Below, in pieces: positions 16,945 to 18,678 of a DNA stretch of 39,482 nucleotides; position 1 is the stretch's first letter, and each line of letters starts with the position of its first letter. The translations under genes were made by a program, and so were the position numbers. The stretch spans positions 1 through 39,482 of the forward strand of contig WQYX01000035.1 in NCBI GenBank assembly GCA_009781005.1, given 5' to 3'. This DNA comes from Polyangiaceae bacterium. Its GTDB lineage: Bacteria > Myxococcota_A > Polyangia > Polyangiales > Polyangiaceae. Under the pieces are notes generated by a model. That model saw only the letters and a list, made by a program, of their open reading frames with translations. It had not been told where the DNA came from and ran no database searches.

Positions 16945-17409
16945 CTAGTATGTGCCGCCATCGGTGCGCCGGTTGGGTGGTAGAACGTCTGGCAGTTCGA
17001 GCTCGATGTGCCAGGTTCCAGCCTCACGCACGCAGTGGACCTCGGCGCGCTCGTCTGGGCCTTCACCTCGAACTTCGACGATCGCTTCGTCATCGGTGAT
17101 GTGTGACTTCATCGACTTCGGTCGAAATGCGAGACCGAAGCGTCCCTCGGCCATCATTTCGTAGGGCTCATAGCGCCGTCCCTGACCGCGGCTTGCTCGG
17201 TCGGCGCGTTCCTTCAAGTTCGTGCGCGCCCGCGGACCAAGGAGCTGGTAGGCGTCACGCATCGCGCGCGGATCGTCGTTTGCAGATTCCATCTTTTCGA
17301 TCCACGCGCGCACCGCGCCGTCCGGCGTTGCTTCGGGAGGCGTGTGCGAACATCCCGCGAAGCAAAGAATCAGGAGGATACACACGAGGACGGCAGCGCA
17401 CTTTCTCAC
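16945..17409 (-). CDS. Small lipoprotein, NTF2-like
   Basis: The 154-residue product has a strong lipoprotein signal (VLVCILLILCFAGC). The mature part starts with ATPDGAVRAWIEKMESAN and ends with EVHCVREAGTWHIELELPD. This order, a helix opening with P-x-x-A-V-x-x-W and a final strand with W-x-I-E, is typical of NTF2-like/DUF4878-type lipoproteins. Function is unknown. It is the first gene of a minus-strand pair. Its 5' side, 15 bases before the ATG, is the hairpin array, so its leader or promoter must involve that element. Confidence 0.7.
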   Translation of the reverse strand: MRKCAAVLVCILLILCFAGCSHTPPEATPDGAVRAWIEKMESANDDPRAMRDAYQLLGPRARTNLKERADRASRGQGRRYEPYEMMAEGRFGLAFRPKSMKSHITDDEAIVEVRGEGPDERAEVHCVREAGTWHIELELPDVLPPNRRTDGGTY

Positions 17410-17423
17410 GGAGTCCGCTATTT

Positions 17424-17609
17424 TAGCGCTGCTGCCGGAAGTATTCCGGCAGCAGCGCTAGAAAAGCCGCGGGAGCGGCTTTTCGGAGGGGTGAATTGCC
17501 CGCGAAAGCGGGCAAGAGGGGGCGCCGCGCCCCCTTGAGACAAGGGAACACGACGGGTTTCCGCGGAGCGGAAACGCGTAGCCCGGAACGAAGTTCCGGC
17601 AGTCGTGTT
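17424..17609. repeat. Tandem array of perfect hairpins ending in a three-way junction
   Basis: Six or seven stem-loops follow each other. H1: 17424-17440 pairs with 17444-17460 (17 bp, loop GTA). H2: 17461-17470 with 17475-17484 (10 bp). H3: 17496-17503 with 17508-17515 (8 bp, GAAA tetraloop). H4: 17517-17523 with 17529-17535 (7 bp). An outer stem, 17547-17554 with 17602-17609 (8 bp), encloses H5 (17557-17564 with 17568-17575, loop GGA) and H6 (17583-17589 with 17593-17599, loop GAA). No two hairpins share the same stem sequence. The array fills most of the 249-base gap between two divergent genes, so it lies at the 5' side of both and is not a normal terminator. Confidence 0.85.
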
Positions 17610-17658
17610 AAGCTTGGAAGTTGCTCGCGTACGATTTGTTTTCTTACTCTTTTAAATC

Positions 17659-18678
17659 GTGAAAAAGGCCGCGGTCACGCTCTTCTGGAAGGGCAAAAAG
17701 GACTCCCGAGATTGTGTGGTCAATGAACGACTGCCAGAAGTGTCGTTGGCCGAACACGGACGCGGCTGTCTCGTGCAGGGCGACAATCTCGCGGCGCTGA
17801 AGTCTCTTCTGCCCGATTTCGCGAGCAAGGTGATGCTCGCATATCTCGATCCGCCGTTTCTCACGAATCGCGCCTTCGAGGCCATTGTGCCATCCGACAT
17901 CGCACCGAAGGACCGCGGGCCGCTCAAGGCGCGTGAGAAAAGATTCGCATTCGACGATCGTTGGTCGGGACGCGCCGAATATCTCGCATCCCTCGGCCAG
18001 CGCCTCGAGTTCGTCCGCGAATTGCTCGCGCCGAATGGCTCGGTGGTCATTCACGTGGACCCGAAAACGAGCCACTACGTCAAAGTTCTGGGCGACGAGA
18101 TCTTCGGCGACGATGCCTTTGCGAGCGAGATTATCTGGCGCTATCGCCGCTGGCCGAGCAAAACCCTGAATTTCCAGCGCGTGCACGACGTGCTCTTGCG
18201 CTTTCGAAAAGATCCAAAGATAAAACCTCGCTTCAACATGACTTATGAACCCCTCGCGCCGTCGACGGTTGCGACGTGGGGGAGAAACAAACAGCGCGCT
18301 GTTTTCGAGGCCAACGGGCGCCGTAAGCGATCGGAAACAACCGACGAAGCAACCAAAGGTGTGCCGATGGGGGATGTTTGGGATATCGGTGTCATCGCGC
18401 CCATGTCGCGCGAACGAACCGGTTATCCTTCCCAAAAGCCAGAGGCACTGCTCGACCGACTCGTTACCGCGCTGACCTGTCCGGGCGATATCGTGCTCGA
18501 TCCATATATGGGTAGCGGGACGACGCTGGTGGTCGCCGCGAAACGGGAGCGTATGTTCGTGGGCATCGACGAAAGCGAGGTTGCCCACGAAATCGCTCGC
18601 ACGCGACTGTCATCCTTGGGGGTACGATTCGGAATCACACCTATCAGCCCTGCGCCTCCAGTGGCGCGCTCGGCCTGA
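17659..18678 (+). CDS. Orphan beta-class DNA methyltransferase (Mod-like, N6/N4)
   Basis: The 339-residue product belongs to the N6_N4_Mtase family (PF01555). [15 protein letters not shown] comes first, then the catalytic motif YLDPPFLTN (DPPF in place of the usual DPPY). [20 protein letters not shown] resembles the type III Mod/EcoP region. [15 protein letters not shown] and the SAM-binding [15 protein letters not shown] come last. Motif IV before motif I defines the beta class. The target would be adenine N6 or cytosine N4. No Res or other nuclease gene is next to it, so it is an orphan. The GTG start at 17659 has no Shine-Dalgarno; a T-rich tract and the hairpin array lie upstream. The chemoreceptor gene follows closely. 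Confidence 0.88.

Follow-up and report, generated by a model that had tools for sequence, protein, structure and literature searches.

The window, i.e., the complete stretch of 39,482 nucleotides analysed in this study, contains a dense array of hairpins between a small lipoprotein-like gene and a divergent gene for an N6/N4-type DNA methyltransferase (Table 1). An inverted-repeat search and folding recovered the array at positions 17417-17610. The first-pass annotation had placed it between two gene starts; this agrees with divergent starts 13 bp (lipoprotein-like gene) and 47 bp (methyltransferase gene) away from the element. The lipoprotein-like protein showed no match in Pfam or NCBIfam.

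In order, the array consists of hairpins with stems of 17, 10, 8, and 9 bp and a branched module, in which an 8-bp outer stem encloses two hairpins of 8 and 7 bp. Four hairpins and a branched module with perfect stems had been described from the sequence before. This layout was recovered, except that the fourth stem comprises 9 bp with a loop of a single nucleotide instead of 7 bp. The GAAA tetraloop reported there is the loop of the 8-bp hairpin 3. The stems had also been considered unrelated, which does not hold: a 14-bp end sequence is common to hairpin 1 and the right module (17427, 17444, and 17594). With the 4-bp flanks included, the natural unit spans 17423-17611.

The hairpin array was confirmed as real and well above chance. 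Among the 186-nt stretches of the window it has the lowest energy on either strand (-118 and -113 kcal/mol versus means of -68 and -66 kcal/mol), and none of 200 dinucleotide shuffles was equally stable (z = -7.4 on the plus strand, -9.3 on the minus strand). An alternative three-way fold can also form, in which GGAGGGG at 17485-17491, 5' of hairpin 3, binds the CCCCC arm of hairpin 4 (17531-17537); the outer pairs of this fold partly covary.

Table 1. Parts of the window copy of the element and its neighbouring genes (positions in the window)
Feature	Position	Strand	Basis
Left neighbour, small lipoprotein-like gene	16945-17409	-	
Left 4-bp flank TTAG (YTAR target/direct repeat)	17423-17426	+	copy alignment
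Hairpin 1 (17 bp): terminal repeat followed directly by its inverted copy (17444-17457)	17424-17460	+	
Left terminal inverted repeat CGCTGCTGCCGGAA (consensus CACTNCTGCCGGAA)	17427-17440	+	copy alignment
Hairpin 2, 10-bp stem 17461-17470/17475-17484: AAAAGCCGC GGGA GCGGCTTTT	17461-17484	+	
Linker GGGGTGAAT between hairpins 2 and 3, near-invariant across 40 copies of three lineages	17488-17496	+	
Hairpin 3, 8-bp stem 17496-17503/17508-17515: TTGCCCGC GAAA GCGGGCAA	17496-17515	+	
Hairpin 4, 9-bp stem 17517-17525/17527-17535: AGGGGGCGC C GCGCCCCCT	17517-17535	+	
Linker after hairpin 4: TTGAGACAA in G000; variable in G103, mostly TGGGGACAA	17535-17543	+	
Right branched module: outer stem 17547-17554/17602-17609, hairpins 17557-17575 and 17583-17599	17547-17609	+	
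Right terminal inverted repeat (TTCCGGCAGTCGTG on the plus strand)	17594-17607	-	
Right 4-bp flank TTAA	17608-17611	+	copy alignment
Right neighbour, N6/N4-type DNA methyltransferase gene	17659-18678	+	PF01555, E 3e-43

Copies of the array were gathered by DNA search. The genome of origin (G000, 4.77 Mb in 199 contigs) contains 20 long copies with 89-100% identity, most of which share both end points relative to the query, as well as fragments. Thirteen more full copies with 80-93% identity were found in a metagenome-assembled genome of the same genus (G009, Polyangiaceae MAG Emb289P4bin44), which, judging by its isolate label, would originate from the gut of a higher termite. A cousin element with the same plan and different stems is present in a third lineage, a member of another genus of the family (G103). 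The DNA search gave no comparable match in 36 other relatives, and a plasmid collection yielded a single weak partial match.

The element measures 181 bp between its direct repeats, has a GC content of 65%, and contains no called gene. Terminal inverted repeats of 14 bp (CACTACTGCCGGAA, consensus CACTNCTGCCGGAA) are located at both ends. When the copies were aligned together with their flanks, similarity dropped abruptly outside YTAR-[CACT...AGTG]-YTAR. The flanking 4-mers differ among copies (TTAG, TTAA, CTAG, and TTCG), and the left one equals the right one in 12 of the 18 full copies of G000, whereas 5.1 matches were expected from partner shuffling and none of 20,000 shuffles reached 12. 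When all three genomes are pooled, the two 4-mers are identical in 26 of 38 full copies against an expectation of 10.2, and again none of 20,000 shuffles came as high. The matches in G009 alone (9/11) or G103 alone (5/9) did not exceed their own shuffles, because the flanks hardly vary there. The window copy itself has imperfect flanks.

Among 184 genomes of the order, six, which all belong to one family, contain the exact terminal repeat, TARCACTNCTGCCGGAA; among 379 genomes sampled evenly across the phylum, it was detected solely in G000 and G009. It also occurs in nine viral contigs; these showed neither an exact second end nor an IS701 gene and were attributed to chance. Furthermore, 31-bp palindromes made of two facing terminal repeats stand alone at many places in G000, some of them between identical 4-bp flanks (L095:2362, L096:1788, L099:1554, L100:1321, and L102:1410). 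In 10 of 18 of these palindromes the arms are not identical, a higher share than for hairpin 1 in full copies. They are probably relics of full elements that were deleted between the inner and the outer repeat.

The insertion site was analysed for the window copy. The order of lipoprotein-like gene, divergent methyltransferase gene, and chemotaxis-type (MCP) gene is conserved in relatives, and the element is absent from all 15 orthologous methyltransferase loci. Since the lipoprotein gene is about 1 kb more distant in many of these loci, and not found within 1.5 kb in G009, the closest clean empty sites are L253, L261, and L262, where the lipoprotein and methyltransferase genes are directly adjacent. 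Subtraction of the element leaves a native intergenic distance of ~60 bp in the window.

None of the 18 copies in G000 overlaps a gene called by a simple codon-usage script, though 29 of the 46 YTAR sites of the window fall in coding sequence. The neighbouring genes are arranged in tandem (8 and 11 cases), divergently (8), or convergently (7), and in this small sample no orientation bias of the copies toward their neighbours was found. Twelve of the 31 copies in G000 and G009 touch a TAA or TAG stop codon and several begin exactly at one. A preference for stop codons was rejected: the YTAR target itself predicts such contacts, and of the window's 17 YTAR sites outside coding sequence, 6 also touch a stop.

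A link to a transposase was obtained from a further genome, G165. Here, the terminal repeat starts an element whose inner end overlaps a second contig by exactly 130 bases, and we infer that both contigs belong to one element. The joined element is 2151 bp long, has CTAG on both sides, and ends in CACTACTGCCGGAAACT and CACTACTGCCGAGAACT. It encodes an IS701-family transposase (NF033540, 401 bits; PF13546, 224 bits) and, beside it, a four-helix-bundle protein of the 23S rRNA intervening-sequence type (TIGR02436, PF05635), as noted at L264:8-337 and L265:1-476. Its interior differs from that of the 181-bp element. Related four-helix-bundle genes were also seen elsewhere in G165, in G103, and in G115, without these ends.

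IS701-family elements are reported to generate direct repeats of exactly 4 bp and to have ends of the type ---YACT-Y--YR (PMC2266710). The sequence CACTACTGCC fits the YACT-Y--Y part of this consensus; it carries C at the position of R and begins at YACT, not three bases earlier. Like IS701 (PMC2266710), the element has 4-bp direct repeats and, apart from these deviations, YACT-type ends; in the joined element of G165, its 14-bp end flanks a gene for an IS701 transposase. It differs in its size of ~181 bp and in encoding nothing. The YTAR target duplication is also known from IS5 (PMC10359306), but no IS5-type transposase linked to the ends of the element was found. Matches to DDE_Tnp_1 in G000 include an intact ISAs1 transposase (L135), which lacks matching ends on both sides and was rejected as a partner. 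At L135:106-119, 25 bp upstream of the ISAs1 gene, a terminal-repeat-like sequence with two mismatches precedes CTAA; this is probably a chance occurrence. The IS701-type domain PF13546 was not found in G000 or G009, both of which are fragmented assemblies; the present mobiliser in these genomes is missing, lost, or absent from the assemblies. Multicopy elements with an identical terminal repeat, a CTAG/TTAG flank, and a different interior (TCTTTGCCGCGAGGACGCC...) were observed in G115 (L271, L272, L273, and L274). They break the assembly within ~70-100 bases and their body was not recovered.

The element is shorter than ~500 bp and non-coding, with terminal inverted repeats, a target-site duplication, and, for the window copy, empty orthologous sites. 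Because it is multicopy, has terminal inverted repeats, 4-bp YTAR repeats, and empty sites, and shares its ends with the element of G165, we regard it as a new family of miniature inverted-repeat transposable elements (MITEs), probably with IS701-type mobilisation. The matching ends suggest that an IS701-family DDE transposase moves it in trans.

The fold was then compared over 40 full copies from the three lineages (G000, G009, and G103). In this set, 93.6% of the stem cells are paired and 21 of 61 pairs show double changes. Double-changed cells numbered 163 versus 48 in shuffles, and the signal was lost when one arm was slid. Such compensatory changes in relatives had been proposed as a check in the first-pass annotation, which had also named many unrelated genomic copies as a sign of a passive repeat cluster. 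Both were found, the latter as the 20 long copies in G000, and the two findings can be reconciled in an element that is mobile and retains its fold in the active copies.

The arm of hairpin 2 reads AAAAGCCGC, CGAAGTCGC, or GGGCGGCCGC depending on the lineage, and the partner arm matches except for one mismatch in G103; the stem was replaced via compensated changes in G009 and G103. Hairpin 3 shows compensated changes between lineages and also within G103. In G103, the terminal repeat recurs in full as the left arm of the right module (CTAGCACTACTGCC), so that the element has a palindrome of this repeat at either end. The arms of hairpin 1 agree in 13 of 17 copies of G000, compared with 5 of 17 for the element ends, and thus pairing is kept locally.

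Within genomes, stem changes are compensated in 12 of 62 cases, as opposed to 10/18, 12/17, and 5/8 between the lineage consensus sequences (Fisher p = 0.005, 0.0001, and 0.017; these values serve as a guide, since pairs and copies are not independent). As lineage differences are mostly compensated and differences within a genome mostly are not, the source copies kept their structure. In our reading, the fold persists in copies that give rise to new ones and is lost from dead copies. Plain MITE decay fails to explain the covariation of so many internal stems. Taken as a whole, the array is very likely one copy of a dispersed new MITE family that is probably moved by an IS701-family transposase and whose fold is kept in source copies.

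The strong covariation, together with the conserved linker GGGGTGAAT and the GGAGGGG/CCCCC pairing that could act as a switch, might instead mean that a mobile element carries a structured non-coding RNA. The plus-strand RNA fold would then be selected for stability, processing, or a trans partner, and the DNA ends would serve for spread only. Departures from pairing on the plus strand are more often G-U than A-C (21 vs. 13), but this excess is not significant (p = 0.11), and omission of the outer stem of the right module, which would strengthen it, was chosen after seeing the data. A strand-specific RNA signal was not found by this comparison. Moreover, both strands fold about equally well, the copies are unbiased in orientation to neighbouring genes, and neither a conserved promoter nor a T-run was found. 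Rfam gave no match in the window at the gathering score and only sub-threshold matches in permissive mode. We regard this explanation as unlikely. Nor is the array a single-locus RNA: it is one copy of a dispersed element. A passive cluster of palindromes, in which template-switch correction during replication maintains the identity of the arms while the fold is unselected, appears quite improbable. Local copying would produce the better agreement of the hairpin 1 arms than of the element ends, but mutational correction should affect all copies alike, and 50 of the 62 stem changes within genomes are uncompensated whereas those between lineages are mostly compensated.

A cis-regulatory leader (an option of the first-pass annotation), insulator, or attenuator of the methyltransferase or lipoprotein gene would suit the position of the array, which must separate the promoters of two divergent genes. 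However, the orthologous loci of the relatives lack the element, other copies adjoin unrelated genes in either orientation, and positions 17300-17750 yielded no site resembling a promoter or terminator. A conserved intrinsic terminator (GC hairpin plus T run) was not found either, and in G009 and G103 other bases take the place of the AAAA/TTTT in hairpin 2. A regulatory function for these genes is very unlikely. The solo 31-bp hairpins and the GTAG before one stem resemble REP sequences, and mobilisation of REP/REPIN-type palindromes by a REP-associated Y1 transposase was considered. REP/REPINs are defined by a RAYT/Y1 transposase and lack target duplication. The elements described here have 4-bp direct repeats and matching terminal inverted repeats, and Y1_Tnp (IS200-type) is represented by one gene in G000 (L145, contig C187) and by none in G009, which makes this assignment extremely unlikely. 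Of the four earlier options, a cluster of inserted palindromic elements came closest, with the correction that the array is one discrete mobile unit present in many copies.

For the MITE, we propose that an IS701-family DDE transposase would be supplied in trans and would cut and paste the element into YTAR sites with a 4-bp stagger. The window copy would have landed in a short divergent intergenic region, and a function for the neighbouring genes would not be required. The hairpins would be kept in copies that yield new copies. The likeliest reason may be that the fold, chiefly the palindromic ends, aids transposition or keeps the insertion tolerable, and a role of transcribed RNA is conceivable. 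More tentatively, and with doubt prevailing, the folded array (as RNA or single-stranded DNA), with its near-invariant GGGGTGAAT linker and covarying stems, might be required for spread or tolerance of the element, such that a DDE-transposed MITE relies on its internal fold besides its ends.

Bacterial MITEs (PMC10969869) are likewise short, non-coding, multicopy, intergenic, and strongly folding, with terminal inverted repeats and direct repeats. Unlike these, the present element is not AT-rich (65% GC), each of its ends is palindromic, and its stems show compensated changes across genera. The palindromic ends and the compensated changes are its most unusual features. BOX, RUP, and SPRITE of Streptococcus pneumoniae are also modular, highly folded dispersed repeats, which are thought to be non-autonomous mobile elements, with BOX and its relatives enriched between convergent genes (PMC3049150). 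The element resembles them in its modular, strongly folded, and dispersed nature. Sequence, host, and target differ, and a preference for convergent genes was not seen in our small sample.

A description of this hairpin-packed MITE family was not found in the literature searched. Our results hence add a MITE family undescribed in that literature to the Polyangiaceae, with ends linked to an IS701-family transposase. MITEs as a kind are already known; the kept fold is the part worth an experiment. Should the internal fold prove necessary, the interior of MITEs could no longer be regarded as filler between two ends. Annotators should avoid labelling such arrays as leaders or non-coding RNAs of the adjacent genes. 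With its 40 full copies from three lineages, the family offers a clean natural data set for separating structure-preserving changes from decay. One contig of G000 (C68, L097) carries three copies within ~5 kb, one of which has an internal deletion.
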